A stretch of 64,000 bases of DNA from a bacterium (lineage in GTDB: Bacteria > Desulfobacterota > Desulfocorpusculales > Desulfocorpusculum): positions 62,001 through 126,000 of the forward strand of contig JBBFLE010000010.1 in assembly GCA_037481695.1 (NCBI GenBank), read 5' to 3'. The position numbers and the translations under genes are program-made. Every line of letters begins with the position of its first letter. The first letter of the stretch is position 1. The notes below the pieces were generated by a model, which did no database searches, was not told where the DNA came from, and was given only the letters and a program-made list of their open reading frames with translations. Positions 35,343 to 44,791 of this stretch are shown in pieces.

Positions 35343-35496
35343 CTGAGACCTCCGCGCAAGAGTCCTTTTTCATGCCACAACAGGTTACCCTCGAATCCCG
35401 GTTTCCCACAAGATCTGAGGGAGTGGGTTCTTGGGGCTTGCTCCTGTTTTCAGGCTGCCTTAGAGTGTGAGCCATTGGGACGTGGGAGGTTGCCAC

Positions 35497-38400
35497 ATGG
35501 CCAGAAGATCAGGCGGGGTTTTGCTGCATATCACTTCTTTACCTTCGGATTTTGGTATCGGGGATTTGGGGCCCTGGGCTTACAGTTTTGCGGACCTGCT
35601 GGCTCAGGCAGGCCTGAGCTGCTGGCAGGTCTTGCCCGTGCATCCCACGGATCCCTTAAGTGGAAACTCTCCGTACAGCACCATTTCCTCCATGGCAGGC
35701 AATCCTTGTTTGGTCAGCCCCGAGGTGCTTGCAGCCTGGGGGTTGCTGAGCCAGGAAGACATGGCCCGGATCCCAGAGTTTCCTGTGGAAACATGCGCTT
35801 ACCAGGAGGTGATCCCATATAAGAAGGGGCTGCTCTGGAAGGCCTCGGAGAGCTTTGGTCCATCACACAGGCTGTGGACCCAGTACAGAGCCTTTTGCCA
35901 GAGGGAGAAGGACTGGCTGGAAGACTACGTGCTTTTCATCTGCCTCAAGGCCGCACAGGGAGGAAGGGCTTGGGTGAGCTGGCCCCAGGAGCTCAAATGG
36001 AGGGAGCCTGGGGCACTGGAGAAGGCCCGTGGAGAGTTGGCTCCAGATCTGGAGAGGGAGAGGATCTTACAGTTTTTCTTTTTCCGCCAGTGGGAAGATC
36101 TAAGAGAGCACTGTGGCCGAAAGGGTATAAGGCTCATAGGGGATGTGCCCATTTACGTCAACCATGACAGCGCCGATGTGTGGGCATCCCCTGAGCTCTT
36201 TTACCTGGATGAGGATGGAAACCCAGAGGTGGTGGCAGGCGTGCCTCCTGATTACTTCAGTACCACGGGCCAGAGGTGGGGTAACCCCATCTACAGGTGG
36301 GATCTCCTGGAGAAGAGGGGTTTCCATTGGTGGCTCAAGAGAATAGGGCAGAATCTCAAGTGGTTCCATCAGATCCGCATAGACCATTTCCGGGGGCTCT
36401 TGGGTTACTGGGAGATTCCAGCCTCAGAGCCCACGGCCGTCAAGGGCAGATGGGTGAAGGCGCCAGGGGAGGCCCTTCTTGAGAAGATCCTCTGCATGTT
36501 TCCCAGGGAATCCTTGATAGCCGAGGACCTGGGCATCATAACTTCCGATGTCAGAGATGTCATGGATCGTTTGGGCATACCTGGCATGAGGGTCTTGCAA
36601 TTTGCCTTTTCAGGGGATTTCCCCCAAAACTTCTATCTTCCGCATAATCATGTGCCCAACTGTGTTGTTTACACTGGCACCCACGACAACAATACCATGA
36701 GGGGCTGGTTTGAAAAGGAAGCCACTGTTGAGGAGAAAAGAAACCTTTTCCTTTACCTGGGAAAGGAAGTATCCCCGCAGGAGCTGCCCAGGGAAATGAT
36801 CAGGCTGGCCATGATGTCCGTGGCAGAAACCGTGATTGTGCCAATGCAGGACATCCTGGGCCTTGGGGAAGAGGCCCGCATGAACCGACCCTCCACCACT
36901 GAAGGAAATTGGAGCTGGAGACTAAACCCGAAACTCCTGGGGCCGGGCATCCTTGAATGGCTCTCCCGGCTAACCTGGGTGTACGGGAGGAATCCCCATG
37001 CTCCATGGGAGAAAGAAGGGCAAGAGTCCCCCAGATTAGATTCGGCTTTGGATGTTGAGAGGGCCTGGAGGAGATGTGATGTTTCTGGTCCCTGGCCCAG
37101 AGAGCCCCTCTTGTATGAGATCCACACCTGGGCCTGGCTGGAGGAGTTGAGCAGCAAAGAGGGGAAGCATGTGGATTTGGCCTGTGTGCCAGAGAAGGAG
37201 TGGGACAGACTGGCACAGCAGGGCCTGGATGGAGTCTGGCTCATGGGGGTCTGGGAAAGAAGCCCTGCTTCGGCCAGGATGGCATGGGAGGATCAGGGCC
37301 TGCGGGCTCAGATGGAAAAGGAGTTCGGAAACCTGGAAAGGAAATGGGTGGTGGGGTCACCCTATTCGGTCAGAAGGTACGTGGTAGACAAGAGACTGGG
37401 AGGACCCCAAGGCCTGGCCATTGCCAGGGAAATGCTGGCCAGAAGAGGCCTTCGCCTGATCCTGGATTATGTGCCCAATCATGTGGCCCTGGATCATCCA
37501 TGGGTGGAGCAACATCCCGAGTACCTGCTGGAGGCAAACCAGGAGGACCTGGACCAAGAGCCCCAGAGTTTCGTGAATCTGGGCGGGCGCATATTTGCTC
37601 ATGGAAGAGATCCCTTCTTTCCCCCATGGAGGGATACCCTCCAGGTGAATGTCTTCAACCCCGGGTTTAGGCAAGCCTCTTTGGAAGTTCTGCGTTCCAT
37701 TGCTGATCAGTGCGACGGGCTTCGCTGCGACATGGCCATGCTGCTTTTGGACAAGGTCTTCAAGATGACCTGGGCAGAAAGAGCAGGGGAGTCCCTTTCT
37801 GAGGAGTTCTGGACCCAGATGATCCGGGGCCTGCGCCAGAGTCATCCCCATTTGCTGCTTTTGGCAGAAGTTTACTGGGGCCTGGAAGAGGAGCTTCTCA
37901 AGCTGGGCTTTGATCTTTGTTATGACAAGGTCTTTTATGACCGACTCATCCATGACAAGGCTCAAAGCCTGCTGGATCACCTGGAGAGGAGCTCAGGCTT
38001 TCAAGAAAGAGTCCTTCGCTTCCTGGAAAACCATGACGAGCCCAGGGCTGCAGGGATTCTGACACCAGAGAAACACAGGGCTGCTGCTTTGATCCTGGCC
38101 ACAGTGCCCGGGGCCAAGCTTTTTTATCACGGACAGTGGGAAGGAAAACAAAAGAGACTTCCAATCCAGATGGGACTTGCCCCGCCTGAGCCCAGCAATG
38201 ATCAGATAAAAGAGATTTACAAATTGATTTCCCGGTTGTATCGCCGGGTGTTGCCTCCCTCAGGGTTCTGGAAAATTTGCCTGGTGGCTGGCTGGCCAGA
38301 CAACCATAGCTTCCAGAACCTGCTGGCCTGGGCCTGGGAAAAACAGGCGGAGAGGTTCGCCTTTGTCTTGAACTTCAGCGGGAGCCCTTCACAAGGGCTC

Positions 38401-38562
38401 CTGAGACTTCCCTGGGAAGATCTGGGTGTGGGCCACTGGATTTTGCAAGACCTGGTAGGTGGTGAGACATACAGAAGAGAAGGCTCAAAGATGCTCCAGG
38501 AGGGGCTCTTCGTGGATCTGGCCCCGTGGCAGGCCCATCTGTTCCTCTTGAGCAAGGCCTGA
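35497..38562 (+). CDS. Fusion of 4-alpha-glucanotransferase (GH77, MalQ) and GH13 alpha-amylase-family domain
   Basis: Cytoplasmic protein of 1021 residues without a signal peptide. Residues 1-490 are a full amylomaltase: nucleophile D296 (IRIDHFRG), acid/base E343 (IAEDLG), stabiliser D397 (GTHDNNT). Residues about 535-1021 are a GH13 domain with nucleophile D745 (GLRCDMAM), acid/base E791 (LLAEVYWG) and D847 (LENHDEPR), plus LDYVPNHVALDHPW. Both active sites look complete. The fusion would disproportionate and hydrolyse or transfer maltodextrins from glycogen, feeding Pgi and PFK. GGGAGGT places the start at ATG 35497. The GH13 specificity (amylase or transferase) is not clear. Confidence 0.92.
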   Translation: MARRSGGVLLHITSLPSDFGIGDLGPWAYSFADLLAQAGLSCWQVLPVHPTDPLSGNSPYSTISSMAGNPCLVSPEVLAAWGLLSQEDMARIPEFPVETCAYQEVIPYKKGLLWKASESFGPSHRLWTQYRAFCQREKDWLEDYVLFICLKAAQGGRAWVSWPQELKWREPGALEKARGELAPDLERERILQFFFFRQWEDLREHCGRKGIRLIGDVPIYVNHDSADVWASPELFYLDEDGNPEVVAGVPPDYFSTTGQRWGNPIYRWDLLEKRGFHWWLKRIGQNLKWFHQIRIDHFRGLLGYWEIPASEPTAVKGRWVKAPGEALLEKILCMFPRESLIAEDLGIITSDVRDVMDRLGIPGMRVLQFAFSGDFPQNFYLPHNHVPNCVVYTGTHDNNTMRGWFEKEATVEEKRNLFLYLGKEVSPQELPREMIRLAMMSVAETVIVPMQDILGLGEEARMNRPSTTEGNWSWRLNPKLLGPGILEWLSRLTWVYGRNPHAPWEKEGQESPRLDSALDVERAWRRCDVSGPWPREPLLYEIHTWAWLEELSSKEGKHVDLACVPEKEWDRLAQQGLDGVWLMGVWERSPASARMAWEDQGLRAQMEKEFGNLERKWVVGSPYSVRRYVVDKRLGGPQGLAIAREMLARRGLRLILDYVPNHVALDHPWVEQHPEYLLEANQEDLDQEPQSFVNLGGRIFAHGRDPFFPPWRDTLQVNVFNPGFRQASLEVLRSIADQCDGLRCDMAMLLLDKVFKMTWAERAGESLSEEFWTQMIRGLRQSHPHLLLLAEVYWGLEEELLKLGFDLCYDKVFYDRLIHDKAQSLLDHLERSSGFQERVLRFLENHDEPRAAGILTPEKHRAAALILATVPGAKLFYHGQWEGKQKRLPIQMGLAPPEPSNDQIKEIYKLISRLYRRVLPPSGFWKICLVAGWPDNHSFQNLLAWAWEKQAERFAFVLNFSGSPSQGLLRLPWEDLGVGHWILQDLVGGETYRREGSKMLQEGLFVDLAPWQAHLFLLSKA

Positions 38563-38847
38563 GTCTGATCATCTGGGATTCCAAGAGGCATGCACACCAT
38601 GAAATTTTTTTCCCAGATGTGCCAATTTTTGTCATGCGGGAGCCTCCAAATCTTGGACTCAGAGATTTTTATTTGAAAGATTTCTGCCTGGGGTCCTTTT
38701 GGGTCTGGAATGGGGGAACCGTTTGAAACAGGAAACAGGACCTTTGGGTCATGGAAGAGTTTATTGCAGGATATCAATGTCTTAACATCCGACACCCGGG
38801 TCTTCTGAAATTTGCTGGCCGAGATCTTCTGTGGCTGGCCAGATACT
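38563..38847. other. Intergenic region upstream of the sigma-54 unit
   Basis: About 285 bp with no supported gene and no clear terminator after the MalQ-GH13 gene. It has several T-rich patches (38605-38690). The functional sites to its right are listed separately. Confidence 0.35.
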
Positions 38848-38865
38848 CGATTCAGGCATGAATCG
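38848..38865. promoter_or_regulatory. Palindrome upstream of the sigma-54 promoter (possible activator site)
   Basis: CGATTCAGGCATGAATCG has perfect 7-bp arms around a 4-nt centre. Its midpoint lies about 74 bp upstream of the predicted transcription start, a suitable place for a bacterial enhancer-binding protein. The activator is unknown. Confidence 0.5.
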
Positions 38866-38902
38866 GCCCGGGCTACAAGGGGGAAAACTTGATTCATTGA
38901 TC

Positions 38903-38918
38903 CTGGCACTATTGTTGC
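38903..38918 (+). promoter_or_regulatory. Sigma-54 promoter of the secreted-protein gene
   Basis: CTGGCAC, five bases, TTGC: both the -24 (TGGCAC) and -12 (TTGC) elements match the consensus with exact spacing. Transcription would start near 38930, giving a leader of about 44 nt before the ATG at 38974. Confidence 0.75.
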
Positions 38919-38973
38919 AAACAAAGAATAATGCCACCAGGGGTGGAAAGATTTGATTCAAGGAGGGAAAGCC

Positions 38974-39696
38974 ATGAGAAAGAGTGTGGGGATATTTGTT
39001 GCGGTTTCACTTGTTCTGGTTTTGGCCTTGGCAGGAGATGGCCTTGCTGCAAAACCGGATCCAACTGCTCAGTGCCAGTCCAAAAAGGTCAATGCTGCCA
39101 GTATCTTCGTGAAAAAGCTCTTCTATGGTGAGGCTTCGGAGCTCAAAAATGAGGATTTTGATCTGGACGCCTTTGTTTTAGAGGCCGAGAGCCAGTTTGA
39201 AGACAGGTGGACTGCGGCCGAGAATTCTGACAATTGCGATTTTCCCTTCGGGCTGGATATAAGCGTATCCGATGGAACCGTCAACTTCGTAAATCTGGGC
39301 GAACTCATCGCCTGGATCGAGGGGCGGGTCGGAGATATTGTGTACTTGGTCTTGGACGGCGTGGATGATACCGAAAAGAATTCCGTAAACCTCGGGGCAG
39401 AGCTCTTGAGGGCTGCCGGGCAAAAGGCCTTCAGCCTGCTTAAGGCAGAGGCCCAAAACCTGCAGAAGCCCAATGACGCCAAAAGGAACCGGGCCAGGGA
39501 AAGGGCCATGAACAAGTTTGGAAGCACATATGAAAAGAGGGTTCAGAAAGCCCAGGGGAAAGGGGTTGATGTAACTGACTTCACAGACGACGCAGATTCA
39601 AATGGAACCTGGGATATTTTGGAACAAATGGAAGCTGAGATCGACTTGTTGGTTGAGGACATCTTGACTGTGTTCACGGCCCAACCCAGCACCTAA
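38974..39696 (+). CDS. Secreted protein of unknown function under sigma-54 control
   Basis: Protein of 240 residues. Residues 1-26 are a Sec signal peptide (MRKSVGIFVAVSLVLVLALA, then GDGLAA before AKPD). The mature part is acidic, with two cysteines (AQCQSK near the start and NCDFPFG) that could form a disulfide. A central segment FGLDISVSDGTVNFVNLGEL is beta-rich, the rest helical, and DDADSNGTWD resembles a short calcium-binding loop. AAGGAGG sits before the ATG; an upstream TTG at 38953 is in frame but lies in the ribosome site. I recognise no family. It stands alone between a sigma-54 promoter and a terminator. Confidence 0.8.
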   Translation: MRKSVGIFVAVSLVLVLALAGDGLAAKPDPTAQCQSKKVNAASIFVKKLFYGEASELKNEDFDLDAFVLEAESQFEDRWTAAENSDNCDFPFGLDISVSDGTVNFVNLGELIAWIEGRVGDIVYLVLDGVDDTEKNSVNLGAELLRAAGQKAFSLLKAEAQNLQKPNDAKRNRARERAMNKFGSTYEKRVQKAQGKGVDVTDFTDDADSNGTWDILEQMEAEIDLLVEDILTVFTAQPST

Positions 39697-39718
39697 CAGG
39701 CCTTGTTTTTGACCTTGT

Positions 39719-39760
39719 GGGGGAGGGGCCAAGCCCCTCCCTCTAGTATTTTGATTTTGC
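39719..39760 (+). terminator. Rho-independent terminator after the secreted-protein gene
   Basis: GGGAGGGGC (39721-39729) pairs perfectly with GCCCCTCCC (39733-39741) over a 3-nt loop, followed by TCTAGTATTTTGATTTT. Confidence 0.88.
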
Positions 39761-39862
39761 AACCGCCCATGGAAAACCCCTCCAGCCGGAAACAAACAAC
39801 ATTCTTGGGTCACATGAGCTCCTGGTAAACCTGCCCCTGAGCTATATCGGCCTTAGGCAAGC

Positions 39863-40912
39863 TCAATATTGCCAAAGCTGCCTTCTTATGAGGGCCAGGT
39901 CCTCGGGCTCTGGCTGGAAAGGGAAACTCCTTATGTCCTCACCTGGTGCGCAGTCTCCATAAGGCCTGGTGCAAACTGCCTTGCCATCAGGCCCGGGGCA
40001 GCCGCTTGTCATGAAGGGAAGCCCAGAGGCGATTACCCTTTCCAGTTCCACCGGGCTCAATCCAAAGGAGACTATCTGCCCCTTCTCGTTGAATGAGAAA
40101 TCCCTGGCCTCTGCCAGGTCCTGGTCTATGAGATACCTGGCCAGCTGGCACCTTCGATACTGTCCCGCAGGGGGCTGAGGATGCTCCTTTAGTTGGGATC
40201 CTGGCTCGGGGAAAAAGCTGAATAGATGGGTGGAGCCTCCTTGTTTGCGGATCCTGTCCATGAGCCTTATCATCTGTTCTTCTGTCTCTCCCAGCCCAAC
40301 TATGAGATGGATTCCCACATGGTCTTGGCCGAAGATCTCCAAGGCCTCCTGGAAGAGCTCCCAGTACTTCTCCCATCTGTGCGGACCCCTGACCCCCTTG
40401 CCCCTGAACTTGTCGAAGATCTCGGGGGTGGCCCCATCCACTGCTATGCCAAGCCTGTCCACGGGGATGGCCCTGTATCTTTCCAGGTGCTCACGCCTGA
40501 GAAGCGTGGGTGTACAGAGAAGAGAAAGGGGAATCCCAGGAAGTTCCTGATGAAGCCTCTGCAGTATGATTTCAGAGTCTTTGACCGCCTTTCCATTGGT
40601 TATCATGGAAAGGCAGATGCGCTTCACCTGGGGGTTGGTCTTGCTCCTGGAGATGATCTCCTCCAAGGAGACCACTGGCCAGTCCACCCGGATGAAGCTC
40701 TTCTTGTCGTAGGTGCCCTGCCTTGCCCTCTGAAGGCCGCAGTAGGCACAATTGGCCGCACAGCCCTCTCCATAGGTCATGAGCAGGTTTATACACTCCA
40801 GCCTGGCGTTTCTGTAAAAACTGCCTGTTTTCATGCCCAGGGTCATGGCAGCAGCCAGACTTATACGCAGGAATTCAGGACTCTCAGATGATTGCGCAGA
40901 CACTTCTCCCAT
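39863..40912 (-). CDS. Radical SAM protein of a LipS1/LipS2-type lipoate synthase
   Basis: Protein of 349 residues with the radical SAM cluster motif CAANCAYC (C-x3-C-x2-C) near residue 52-59 and biotin-synthase-like neighbours. A C-terminal set of cysteines (SGCPGPDGKAVCTRPYGDC) could hold an auxiliary [4Fe-4S] cluster that serves as sulfur donor, as in lipoate synthase. The ATG at 40912 follows GAGGAGG; the frame to 40975 overlaps the previous gene. With the next three upstream genes it matches the LipS1/LipS2 lipoate assembly cluster described in archaea and many bacteria, in which two radical SAM proteins each insert one sulfur into octanoyl-protein. Which of the two it is cannot be said by eye. 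Confidence 0.8.
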   Translation of the reverse strand: MGEVSAQSSESPEFLRISLAAAMTLGMKTGSFYRNARLECINLLMTYGEGCAANCAYCGLQRARQGTYDKKSFIRVDWPVVSLEEIISRSKTNPQVKRICLSMITNGKAVKDSEIILQRLHQELPGIPLSLLCTPTLLRREHLERYRAIPVDRLGIAVDGATPEIFDKFRGKGVRGPHRWEKYWELFQEALEIFGQDHVGIHLIVGLGETEEQMIRLMDRIRKQGGSTHLFSFFPEPGSQLKEHPQPPAGQYRRCQLARYLIDQDLAEARDFSFNEKGQIVSFGLSPVELERVIASGLPFMTSGCPGPDGKAVCTRPYGDCAPGEDIRSFPFQPEPEDLALIRRQLWQY

Positions 40913-40928
40913 TTCCTCCTCGGATTTT

Positions 40929-41909
40929 TTACTGGGCCCTTTCAGATGTGTCCTGACCCATGGAAAAACCCGCAAGCTCCCCAGGCACCGAACAGCATGT
41001 GGGCAGAAACTCCACCTCTAACCCCAGCTCTCGGGCTGCCTTGAGCGTCTCTTCGCTGTAAAGGGCTATTCGCTGCACCCCTGCCTCCAGGGCCAATCTT
41101 TCCAGCTCCAGTCTCTGTTTGCCCCTGGGCCTGGCGCAACCAAGGGTTATGAACGCCTCGGGAAACATGAGACGGCTTTCTGCTATGAGTCTGGCCACTT
41201 CCACCGGGCTGGCCGATGCGGCCTGCCCAAGAGGCGTGCCTCTTAGGGGCATGAAGGCCACCCATACCAGCAGCTCCACAGGATAGCGCCTCAGGATTTC
41301 CAGCCCCTTTCTCTCCCCCACTATCTGCCCGGCGTGAACACCTGCCACAATGTGAGGAGCCACCCTAAGCCCGCAGCCATAAAGCGCATCCAGAGTCTCT
41401 TCCAGAAGCTCCAGGCCCTGTTCCAGATGCATGATGGAGGCCCATGTCTCTCGGGCCCCCACCACTTCCACCAGCACCTGGTCCACCCCCGCTTCCTTCA
41501 AGGCCCTGGCAGTGGGCCCATCCACCATGCCCGAGTGCACTGAAACGTGAAGACCTGTGGATGCCTTCACCTTTTCCAGCCCCTCCAGGAATCCTCTCCA
41601 TGGAAGCCTTCCCTGGGTGTCGCTGCCGCCCGTGACCAGGCAGCCCAAGGATCCCTCTGCCTCCAGCCTGAGACACAACTCCAGCAGCTCCCTGGAGTCC
41701 TGGACGCTGTGCATGGGCTCCAGGATCTTCCCCCGGCAATGCTCACAGCCCAGGCTGCACCTGCTTCCTGTTATGGAGATGGCCGGGTAAAGCCCTGTTT
41801 TCCCGTCCACTATGAACATGCCCGGAAGGCAAAGGGTTATCTTGTTTCCGAATCGCTCCCTGGAGATGGCCCTGGCCTTTCTCAGGAGTTCCTGGAGGGG
41901 CTCTGCCAT
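40929..41909 (-). CDS. Radical SAM protein of a LipS1/LipS2-type lipoate synthase (partner)
   Basis: Protein of 326 residues of the COG1856-type radical SAM group. The cluster motif is CSLGCEHC (C-x3-C-x2-C) in YPAISITGSRCSLGCEHC, and the C-terminus ends in FLPTCCSVPGE, whose cysteines, with LGCARPRGK further upstream, may ligate a second cluster. The ATG at 41909 is preceded by GGGGGAGG and begins 5 bp after the FAD protein gene; a GTG at 41930 is an alternative. The assignment as a lipoate-synthase partner rests mainly on the neighbouring ligase and on the paired radical SAM gene. Confidence 0.8.
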   Translation of the reverse strand: MAEPLQELLRKARAISRERFGNKITLCLPGMFIVDGKTGLYPAISITGSRCSLGCEHCRGKILEPMHSVQDSRELLELCLRLEAEGSLGCLVTGGSDTQGRLPWRGFLEGLEKVKASTGLHVSVHSGMVDGPTARALKEAGVDQVLVEVVGARETWASIMHLEQGLELLEETLDALYGCGLRVAPHIVAGVHAGQIVGERKGLEILRRYPVELLVWVAFMPLRGTPLGQAASASPVEVARLIAESRLMFPEAFITLGCARPRGKQRLELERLALEAGVQRIALYSEETLKAARELGLEVEFLPTCCSVPGELAGFSMGQDTSERAQ

Positions 41910-41914
41910 CTTGT

Positions 41915-42997
41915 TCAGTTCCTCCCCCACAAGAAATACTCCCTGAAGGCCACCCAGTGGGAACGCACCAGGGCCTCAAAGGAGCCCTTGAGCCAGTCCT
42001 GCTCCATGCTCTTTCTGTGGAGCACTGCCCGCTCAAGGCCAGGTAGAAGCAAGTCCCTCCACCTCTGCTCATATTCCCCCAGTCTTTGTGCATTTCCTGA
42101 GCAGAGGGCCTCCCGGGCCGCCAGGCCCGCCATCTCCCCGCAGATGAGGGCATTGGGGATGCCTCCTCCTGTGACAGGATCAGTATGTCCCGCGGCGTCT
42201 CCGGCCAACAATATGGTACCCGAGGCCGTGATGGAATGAGGGCCTCCCACTGGAACAAGGCCTCCTGTGGCAGGACCCTCCAGCCTGCCCACCAATCCTT
42301 TTTGCCTGAGCTTTTCCAGGAACCAGCTAAGAAGCTGGGATATTCTTCCGGCCTGAGATCTGTCCACCCCCAGCCCCACATTGGCCCAGTCCCCTTTTGG
42401 GAAAAGCCATGCGTATCCCCCTTGGAAGGCAGGCCAGAAATGGACCTGGGTGCAGGAAAGGGGGGTCTTCAATTCTGCTCTCACCTGCAAAGCGTAAAGA
42501 AAGGCCTTGTGCCTGAGGCCCAGGGCCTGGGCGGCCCTGGAAAGGGGGCCGTCTGCCCCTATGAACAAAGGAGCCTCAAGCTCCAGGAATTGGCCCTGCA
42601 CAAAGAGGCTCACCCTCCCATTTTCCACTTTTTGAACCCTGGCCCCTTTGATGAGGCGAGCCCCGGCCTCCTGGGCCTCAAGGGCCAGCTTTTGGTCCAG
42701 TCTGTTCCTGTGCATTACAACACCCGGCCAGTGGTTCTCTGCCAGGAGCCTGTCCTGCAGGTATGTGTGCATGCCCTCCACCTCTTGTGCCCAGCAGGTT
42801 CGGGGAAACCTGAGGGCCACGGCCATGGGCACGTACTCGGCGCACTGCACGGGCTCGCCCACCACCTTGCGGCGCTCCAGTACAAGGGTCCTTAGGCCGC
42901 CCAAGGCCGCCTGCCTTGCCGCCGAGCAACCGGCCGGGCCCCCCCCTATGACAACCAGGTCCCACTTCCCGGCGCATATGGGCTCCTCCATGCTCAT
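41915..42997 (-). CDS. Geranylgeranyl-reductase-family FAD oxidoreductase (LipT-like)
   Basis: Flavoprotein of 360 residues: dinucleotide fold LVVIGGGPAGCSAARQAALG at the N-terminus, the VGEPVQCAEYVP block with a conserved cysteine, and ILLAGDAAGHTDPVTGGGI near 270. It belongs to the geranylgeranyl reductase-like group. The ATG at 42997 overlaps the stop of the ligase gene (ATGA) behind GGAGG; the frame to 43336 is false extension. In reported LipS1/LipS2 clusters a flavoprotein named LipT occupies this place and is proposed to supply electrons to the radical SAM enzymes; the same role is inferred here. Confidence 0.82.
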   Translation of the reverse strand: MSMEEPICAGKWDLVVIGGGPAGCSAARQAALGGLRTLVLERRKVVGEPVQCAEYVPMAVALRFPRTCWAQEVEGMHTYLQDRLLAENHWPGVVMHRNRLDQKLALEAQEAGARLIKGARVQKVENGRVSLFVQGQFLELEAPLFIGADGPLSRAAQALGLRHKAFLYALQVRAELKTPLSCTQVHFWPAFQGGYAWLFPKGDWANVGLGVDRSQAGRISQLLSWFLEKLRQKGLVGRLEGPATGGLVPVGGPHSITASGTILLAGDAAGHTDPVTGGGIPNALICGEMAGLAAREALCSGNAQRLGEYEQRWRDLLLPGLERAVLHRKSMEQDWLKGSFEALVRSHWVAFREYFLWGRN

Positions 42998-44580
42998 GCT
43001 GCCCTCCGGGCCAGAGACAATACCTTTTTCAGGAGCCTCAGGTTTATGTGGGTCTGGTGTTCGAAGCCACCCTGGTATGCGTCGCGAGCCTTGCCCAGGT
43101 CGTAACAGGTGGTGCTGTCCATGCCCACAAGCACCCCTGGCACACCGGCCTGCTCGAACTCCTGGGCATGTTTCACATAGAAGCCTTCGCAACAGCAGCC
43201 CAGAAAGCCTCTGGCCCCTTGCGTCTTCAACTTCTCCAGATTTTCCATGAGATTCTCGAAGCTGGTCACGGTCACGGGCTTGAGACCATATTGCCTTGCC
43301 AGGGCATAGCCTTCTCCTATGGAGCAAAGCCCGCATTCATAACAGCCGTCCGAGTGGCGAAGCTCGCAGGTCAGATCCTTGGAACAGTAGGGCAGCAAGA
43401 ACCAGTCCATTCCGCGGCTCAAGACCTGGGGAAGGCTCCCCCCCACAGGGAAAAGCTCATGGGTCTCGTGAAAAGAGAATCCCAACTCCAGATATGGAAG
43501 TTTGCCCAAAGCCTTGGCAAAGGCCTCAAAAAAATCCCTCATACCCAGGGAGGGGAAAGGGCTGGGGACCTGGGAGAAAAAGTTGCTTAGGATCTTTTCC
43601 ACCTCCTCCATTTTGGCCGGCACGTCCTTGAACCTGCTTTCCAGGTCATAAACAGCCCTTGCCGGAAAGGCGAAGAAATCTCCTGAGATCACAGCAGAGC
43701 GGATCCTCTTCCTGGCAGGATCCAGGTCCAGAAGAAGCCTTATGAGTCCTCCCTCTCCCTTGTGAAGGGCCTTCATGAAGCTTCTACCTTGGGAGACATG
43801 GCTTCGCCTGTCCACCCAGGAGGGTGAAGAGAACCTGGGCAGAAGGGCCTCAAGCCTCTCCTGCTCCCAGGCAGTCAGGCCGGATCTTGTGAACTCCACA
43901 TCAAGACCCCTGGCAAAGCCCCTGATCAAAGCTTCCTTTATGTGGGCTGCCTGGGGCAGGTAACCCAGCTCCCTTTTCATGGTGGTCACCCTTTCCATGA
44001 GGGAGTCCACCTCGTGGGCCTTGAGCTTTTCCATGGGAACTCTAAGGGCCCTCAGCATCTGCCATATGTCCAGATCCACCAGAAGGGTGCCTTGAAAAAG
44101 AAACGCCTCACCCTCGGCAGTGCCTCCTGTGCCCGATATCTTTCGGCCTCTTATCTCTATGTCGTTTCTGGGCCTGAAGCACAGGGGAAGCCCGAAAGCC
44201 TCTTGCAGGGCGCCACAGAAGATCTCTGAGAGCTTGCGGGCCACCTGCTCGGGGGAACCCCCCAGGACAGGGTCTTCTCTATGGGCTATGATCTCCCAGC
44301 CTATGTGGCTGGGCTCGAAGAGGATGGCACCTCCGCCAGTGATGCGGCGGTTGACCTCTATGCCCTGCCTCTGGCAAAAATCAAGCCTGAGTTCCTGGTC
44401 CAACTGCTGATGGTAGCCAACCAGGGCAGAGGGTCTTGAGAACTGCAGGAAACGAAGCGTGTCCGGACCAAGACCACGAGCCCTGGACTCCAGAAGAACC
44501 TGATCCAGGGCCATGTTCTGGGCGGCATTTCTAAAGCCTGTGTCCAGCAGTCTCCAGATCCTCTTGGAGCTCATGCTCAT
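42994..44580 (-). CDS. Lipoate-protein ligase fused to a DUF116 domain
   Basis: Protein of 528 residues with three parts. Residues 1-245 are an LplA-type ligase: NRRITGGGAILFEP at 77-90, and the catalytic lysine K147 in NDIEIRGRKISG. Residues about 262-350 resemble the accessory LplB domain (GGLIRLLLDLDPARKRIRSAVISGDF region). Residues about 390-500 form a DUF116 domain with cysteines in LPYCSKDLTC, GCYECGLCSIG and GCCCEGF, probably metal- or cluster-binding. It would attach octanoate or lipoate to carrier proteins and hand them to the radical SAM pair. ATG 44580 is favoured over the longer frame to 44679. Confidence 0.85.
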   Translation of the reverse strand: MSMSSKRIWRLLDTGFRNAAQNMALDQVLLESRARGLGPDTLRFLQFSRPSALVGYHQQLDQELRLDFCQRQGIEVNRRITGGGAILFEPSHIGWEIIAHREDPVLGGSPEQVARKLSEIFCGALQEAFGLPLCFRPRNDIEIRGRKISGTGGTAEGEAFLFQGTLLVDLDIWQMLRALRVPMEKLKAHEVDSLMERVTTMKRELGYLPQAAHIKEALIRGFARGLDVEFTRSGLTAWEQERLEALLPRFSSPSWVDRRSHVSQGRSFMKALHKGEGGLIRLLLDLDPARKRIRSAVISGDFFAFPARAVYDLESRFKDVPAKMEEVEKILSNFFSQVPSPFPSLGMRDFFEAFAKALGKLPYLELGFSFHETHELFPVGGSLPQVLSRGMDWFLLPYCSKDLTCELRHSDGCYECGLCSIGEGYALARQYGLKPVTVTSFENLMENLEKLKTQGARGFLGCCCEGFYVKHAQEFEQAGVPGVLVGMDSTTCYDLGKARDAYQGGFEHQTHINLRLLKKVLSLARRAA

Positions 44581-44791
44581 GACTCTGTTTGGCCTTTTTT
44601 TCTCACGAGGATCTGGCCCATCGGGAGGGGATCCTCGATTCCCCTGAAAGAGAATTTGCCCTAGTCTCTCGGGGAGCAAAGAGCCTGGCCCCTTTCCCCG
44701 GGGTCTTGTCTATTTTTGCATGTTATGGGGCGGGGATAAACCCCGGGGCCTGGAAGCCCAGGAGCATTTGGGCTTGGGTGTGGCAGCCCGC

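Follow-up and report, generated by a model that had tools for sequence, protein, structure and literature searches.

The locus

The window (the whole 64,000-nucleotide stretch of bacterial DNA analysed here) carries a gene for an acidic 240-aa protein (mature pI 4.37) with two cysteines and, as judged by eye, a signal-peptide-like N-terminus (Table 1). The length and the acidity are those given by an earlier, sequence-only reading of this DNA. The same reading called the protein secreted; the N-terminus agrees with that description, and from it we infer export itself. Ahead of the gene is a 411-bp intergenic stretch, located 3' of a gene whose single 1031-aa ORF (35467-38562) joins a GH77 4-alpha-glucanotransferase to an alpha-amylase-like domain. 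Because the next gene is on the opposite strand, the 240-aa gene stands alone, as the sequence-only reading had proposed. The convergent genes (39863-44679) probably form a lipoate assembly cluster: a radical-SAM pair that matches the LipS2/LipS1 lipoyl synthases, though below the NCBIfam cut-offs, is accompanied by genes for a geranylgeranyl-reductase-family protein and for a lipoate-protein ligase that carries a DUF116 tail.

The hairpin behind the gene was previously described as a strong terminator. This is an overstatement, given the poor T-tract, the fold z-score of -1.87, and a number of terminator-like matches no higher than in shuffled sequences (2 vs 2.1). An Rfam search of 38500-39900 gave no match.

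Table 1. Features in and around the 240-aa gene, in window coordinates.
Feature	Position	Strand	Basis or remark
IHF consensus match, WATCAANNNNTTR	38772..38784	+	perfect; overlaps left half of TGTC element
Candidate enhancer TGTC-N9-GACA, TGTCTTAACATCCGACA	38778..38794	+	centre about -144; inferred from class enrichment and match to C10:4603
Palindrome CGATTCA-GGCA-TGAATCG	38848..38865	.	centre about -74; 7-bp arms; role uncertain
GATTCA copy	38891..38896	+	just 5' of -24 box
Sigma-54 -24/-12 promoter, TGGCACTATTGTTGCA	38904..38919	+	perfect consensus; 11 vs 1 sites; RpoN and activators in genome
GATTCA copy	38955..38960	+	just 5' of ribosome-binding site
Ribosome-binding site GGAGG	38962..38966	+	sequence
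Gene for 240-aa acidic protein, probably exported, two homologous helical repeats	38974..39696	+	stand-alone module
Hairpin (11 bp), probable terminator	39719..39743	+	weak T-tract; pair count, fold z-score

The sigma-54 promoter and its genomic setting

A perfect -24/-12 site (TGGCACTATTGTTGCA) lies on the forward strand of the intergenic stretch, 54 nt ahead of the ATG at 38974. The GG and GC dinucleotides of its two boxes are correctly spaced, and this spacing predicts a +1 near 38930. It is the only perfect match to TGGCACN5TTGCW in the window. Across the 4.10-Mb genome, the pattern has 11 perfect matches, compared with 1 for a reversed-pattern control, and the looser TGGCAYN5TTGC has 38 matches, compared with 4 for its control. 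The genome encodes one RpoN DNA-binding domain, and a search for sigma-54 activator domains gave 33 matches, of which 30 are strong. Given a single rpoN, 30 strong activators, and 11 perfect sites against 1 in the reversed control, the promoter is very probably real. The same machinery and site enrichment, together with the right geometry, also make sigma-54 control of this single, putatively exported protein well supported; on both the perfect boxes and the mode of control, the sequence-only reading holds. A search for an activator gene found none inside the window and only one on the same contig, approximately 97 kb away.

We took 10 proteins from behind the remaining perfect sigma-54 sites and compared them with Pfam. 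Three have prepilin methylation motifs, and the others include FliL, a methyl-viologen hydrogenase delta subunit (FlpD), a thioredoxin-like [2Fe-2S] ferredoxin protein, a sensor kinase, and a protein that resembles MoeA weakly; Pfam recognised nothing in the remaining two. Two of the prepilin sites are directly 3' of an activator gene, and the third is within approximately 1.6 kb of one. At one sigma-54 prepilin promoter, the adjoining activator is PrsR-like (TIGR02915, 409.6 bits, below the cut-off of 502.6). A region of the genome at G000:C1:240000-249000 (L137) contains genes for a PEP-CTERM-type ATPase and PrsT-, PrsK-, and PrsR-like proteins (the last at C1:243894-245285), none of which reaches its NCBIfam cut-off; after these genes comes a string of prepilin-like ones, preceded by a sigma-54 site with TGTCGGCAATCCGACA. 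Pilin and flagellar genes are the usual surface-structure targets of RpoN in Geobacter, according to the part of that work drawn on here (PMC2725144).

Candidate activator sites

The palindrome centred at about -74 has the 7-bp arms noted earlier. A genome search for CGATTCA-N4-TGAATCG, which the sequence-only reading had suggested, returned this one copy and nothing else with fewer than two mismatches. Because similar inverted repeats are common in random stretches (7-bp arms with a spacer of up to 10 bp are present in 205 of 2000 stretches of 120 bp, and in 326 of 2000 stretches of 200 bp, drawn at random from the window), the palindrome alone is weak evidence. The hexamer GATTCA occurs four times in the 128 bp ahead of the gene start. 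Some hexamer is that frequent in 3 of 1000 shuffles and, among real stretches of 128 bp, in 54 of 3000; when all 411 bp of the intergenic stretch are shuffled, four copies of a hexamer are reached in 476 of 1000 cases. Inverted pairs of GATTCA are present in only five places in the genome: the palindrome, three places inside ORFs (C1, C6, and C10:2214), and one 3' of both flanking ORFs (C14). We therefore rejected the palindrome as a genome-wide regulator site. The sequence GATTCAGGATTGATGAATC is found at L129:1501-1519 with a further GATTCA nearby; it is intergenic, 3' of both flanking ORFs, and has no promoter context.

It is unlikely, if not strikingly so, that the palindrome and the GATTCA copies at 38891 and 38955 constitute a true operator of a dedicated activator or repressor. 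Such an operator would fit the perfect and genomically unique arms, the rarity of the fourfold hexamer in shuffles, and the restriction of the GATTCA cluster to this promoter among the 32 sigma-54 sites examined of the 38 known. Against it stand the frequencies of such repeats and hexamers in random and real stretches, the lack of a further good copy in the genome, the location of the four other GATTCA pairs within ORFs or downstream of them, and the position itself, as -74 is close for an enhancer site.

A different element is found further upstream. In the 220 bp upstream of all 38 sigma-54 sites, we counted inverted repeats of every tetramer whose two copies are 7-10 bp apart. TGTC ranked first of the 256 tetramers, with 5 sites (the next two had 4 each; the mean was 0.61). 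The TGTC class is present in 5 of the 38 sigma-54 upstream stretches and in 4 of 380 displaced control stretches (Fisher test; P = 0.0005, or 0.003 minus one site located inside a coding gene). Because the TGTC form was spotted before the ranking was run, the ranking is the fairer figure. Besides the element inside a coding gene, another of the five is unusually distant, at -190 from the box.

The element upstream of the 240-aa gene (TGTCTTAACATCCGACA) is identical at 13 of 17 positions to TGTCGAGACATTCGACA at C10:4603, the best match among the 37 upstream stretches compared; across the 36 other sites and the 380 controls, the maximum was 12. The C10:4603 element is part of the sigma-54 promoter that precedes a gene for a GcvH-like 307-aa protein on the same contig, a little 3' of genes for a sensor kinase and an AtoC-like activator (C10:2583-3935); the region (L136:865-5690, G000:C10) also encodes a putative metalloprotease (assigned by eye). 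Overlapping the left half of our element is a perfect match, the sole one in the window, to the IHF consensus. It is a candidate competing or accessory site, and its coverage of the same place argues against the TGTC element as an enhancer. We tentatively name TGTC-N9-GACA as the main activator site, at somewhat less than an even chance. The sequence-only reading had made the palindrome the key upstream element; the TGTC class, common to other sigma-54 promoters, is the better enhancer candidate.

The two-element pattern TGTCNNNACATNCGACA, with up to two mismatches, is rarer in the genome than its reversed control (31 vs 68) and hence not enriched, which implies a regulon of at most two sites, that is, a tiny one. 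In the part of the Desulfovibrio vulgaris study used here, most activator regulons are tiny, with one to four operons, and several Desulfovibrio activator motifs consist of TGT and ACA half-sites 9, 11, or 12 bp apart (PMC4641369); the element described here has the same form, as TGT-N11-ACA. We rejected an operator shared with the PrsR-like-linked pilin promoter: a search for shared words found only ATCCGACA in common with the upstream stretch of the 240-aa gene, and a full local alignment was not significant (equalled in 176 of 1000 shuffles).

The protein and its relatives

Pfam and NCBIfam searches gave no match above cut-off for the 240-aa protein. CsgF (PF10614) was rejected, at 13.6 bits against a Pfam cut-off of 25.8 (E = 0.079), as was a PEP-CTERM protein, since there is no NCBIfam match and the C-terminus, which ends in LVEDILTVFTAQPST, shows by eye neither a PEP motif nor the membrane helix and basic tail that should follow it. 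There is a single close relative, 50 per cent identical over residues 103-237, in a genome of the same family (G002; the contig is from Thermodesulfobacteriota bacterium isolate RSWS15). Its gene is cut off by the contig start, and the N-terminal half was not found in the other G002 contigs. Neither the third genome of the family nor the viral contigs and plasmids searched yielded a relative, and two scans of a wider contig collection gave nothing new, the second finding only the contig of the known close relative.

Profile searches extended this picture. Of the 395 genomes of the phylum that were searched, a two-row profile of the protein and its close relative matched 7 at E <= 0.01, the genomes of those two included, with matches to exported multi-domain proteins of other families down to E = 3.5e-13. 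A 14-row profile matched 9 of 395 genomes at E <= 1e-4 (8 besides the genome of the window), a count that is partly circular because the profile was built from matches of the earlier search; some of its weaker matches are confined to a single half of the module. Eight copies are present in one genome, G131. The module directly follows the signal peptide in pectinacetylesterase-like (PF03283), GSDH-type, and other hydrolase-like proteins, whereas in other relatives it is C-terminal, after TSP_3, RCC1, Lcl_C/Ig-like, or weak fn3 domains. The relatives share the blocks KF..W.KAE and LLKAAG..C.SLLKAES, and within the module one half is homologous to the other (hhalign; P = 3.4e-16). It is thus well supported that the 240-aa protein consists of a single free-standing two-repeat helical module, of a kind that has no Pfam or NCBIfam name. 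Of the earlier description as an orphan of no recognised family, the lack of a database family stands and the orphan status does not. A literature search for the hydrolase-fused module returned nothing relevant, which does not show that the module is unpublished.

Among 21 genes for module relatives, the upstream DNA of one contains a perfect sigma-54 site; sigma-54 control is therefore not general to the module. The gene in question, from G131, encodes a 289-aa fn3-like-plus-module protein and has the site 73 nt ahead of its ATG, a co-occurrence that, with 21 genes tested, is no more than suggestive. Another perfect sigma-54 site of G131 (L176:3363) is approximately 150 bp 3' of a module gene and points away from it.

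Structure prediction, also proposed in the sequence-only reading, gave an AlphaFold2 model from the two-row alignment with a pLDDT of 77.5 and a pTM of 0.78 (two of five models were above 70). The model is helical except for a short hairpin, with three main helices in each half. Foldseek found no match to it at E <= 0.001, a second fold search gave generic helical bundles only, and a sequence search of solved structures found none that was credible. The top-ranking structural matches are to PhoU-like chains (2iiu; Z = 8.1, rmsd 5.6, 166 aligned). These matches and the two halves of three main helices would suit a helical bundle of the periplasm that binds a ligand or a metal and is arranged like PhoU or ferritin, rather than a surface structural module. 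We consider that reading improbable: for helical bundles, a Z below about 13, such as this one, may reflect mere arrangement, Foldseek offers no match at its threshold, and in the relatives the module is part of exported proteins of the hydrolase-like or repeat type.

Proposed mechanism and significance

On balance, we lean towards a single-gene, activator-dependent sigma-54 unit that makes an extracellular or surface structural module. RpoN-RNA polymerase would bind the -24/-12 site, and the promoter would be opened upon a signal by an AAA+ enhancer-binding protein, whose most likely binding site is TGTC-N9-GACA. The product would then be exported via its signal peptide and would most likely serve extracellularly, for structure or attachment (in a surface layer, a matrix, or an appendage-associated structure), being produced along with further surface structures whose expression is conditional. 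It is very unlikely that a sigma-70-type promoter instead reads the gene and that the -24/-12 match is due to chance: by the reversed control, approximately one in 11 perfect sites may be a chance match, and one sigma-70-like pair (9/12) is present at 38903-38932, but shuffled sequences yield about as many such pairs (0.9 against 1), this one overlaps the sigma-54 site, and that site is intergenic, correctly oriented, and suitably placed before the ATG.

The promoter is an ordinary, textbook sigma-54 switch; the mildly interesting part is the module family without a Pfam or NCBIfam name. More speculatively, and with a rather low probability in our view, the two-repeat unit could be an unrecognised extracellular attachment module of the phylum that, fused at either terminus, holds unrelated hydrolases and surface repeat proteins on the cell surface or matrix, the stand-alone form being its sigma-54-switched partner or competitor. 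If so, the stand-alone module would set how much of this surface is available. Its small size makes this copy a handy form for structural and binding tests, and solving the structure or binding of the module would annotate many larger exported proteins at once.

Comparison with known systems

The closest kind of system, within the parts of the literature drawn on here, is that of the sigma-54-controlled, single-gene PEP-CTERM proteins with PrsK/PrsR (Haft 2006, PMC1569441), including pepA of Aquincola (PMC9850573). In both cases, an exported protein (putatively so here) is encoded alone behind a long intergenic region, with the -24/-12 boxes tens of bases before the start codon and an activator motif, here a candidate, upstream. 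The present gene differs in that its product lacks a PEP-CTERM tail, in that there is no adjacent PrsR, and in that a helical module makes up the whole protein.

With the RpoN regulons of Geobacter and Desulfovibrio, as described in the portions of those studies used here (PMC2725144, PMC4641369), the present system shares the promoter consensus, targets among pilin and flagellar genes, activators whose regulons are very small, and the TGT/ACA half-sites; the difference is that the family of the 240-aa protein is not named in those portions. Finally, the PF03283-like and TSP3-, RCC1-, Lcl_C-, or fn3-containing exported proteins of the phylum have a homologous two-repeat module with the same shared blocks, but in the protein described here the module is the whole protein, and only two cysteines are left.
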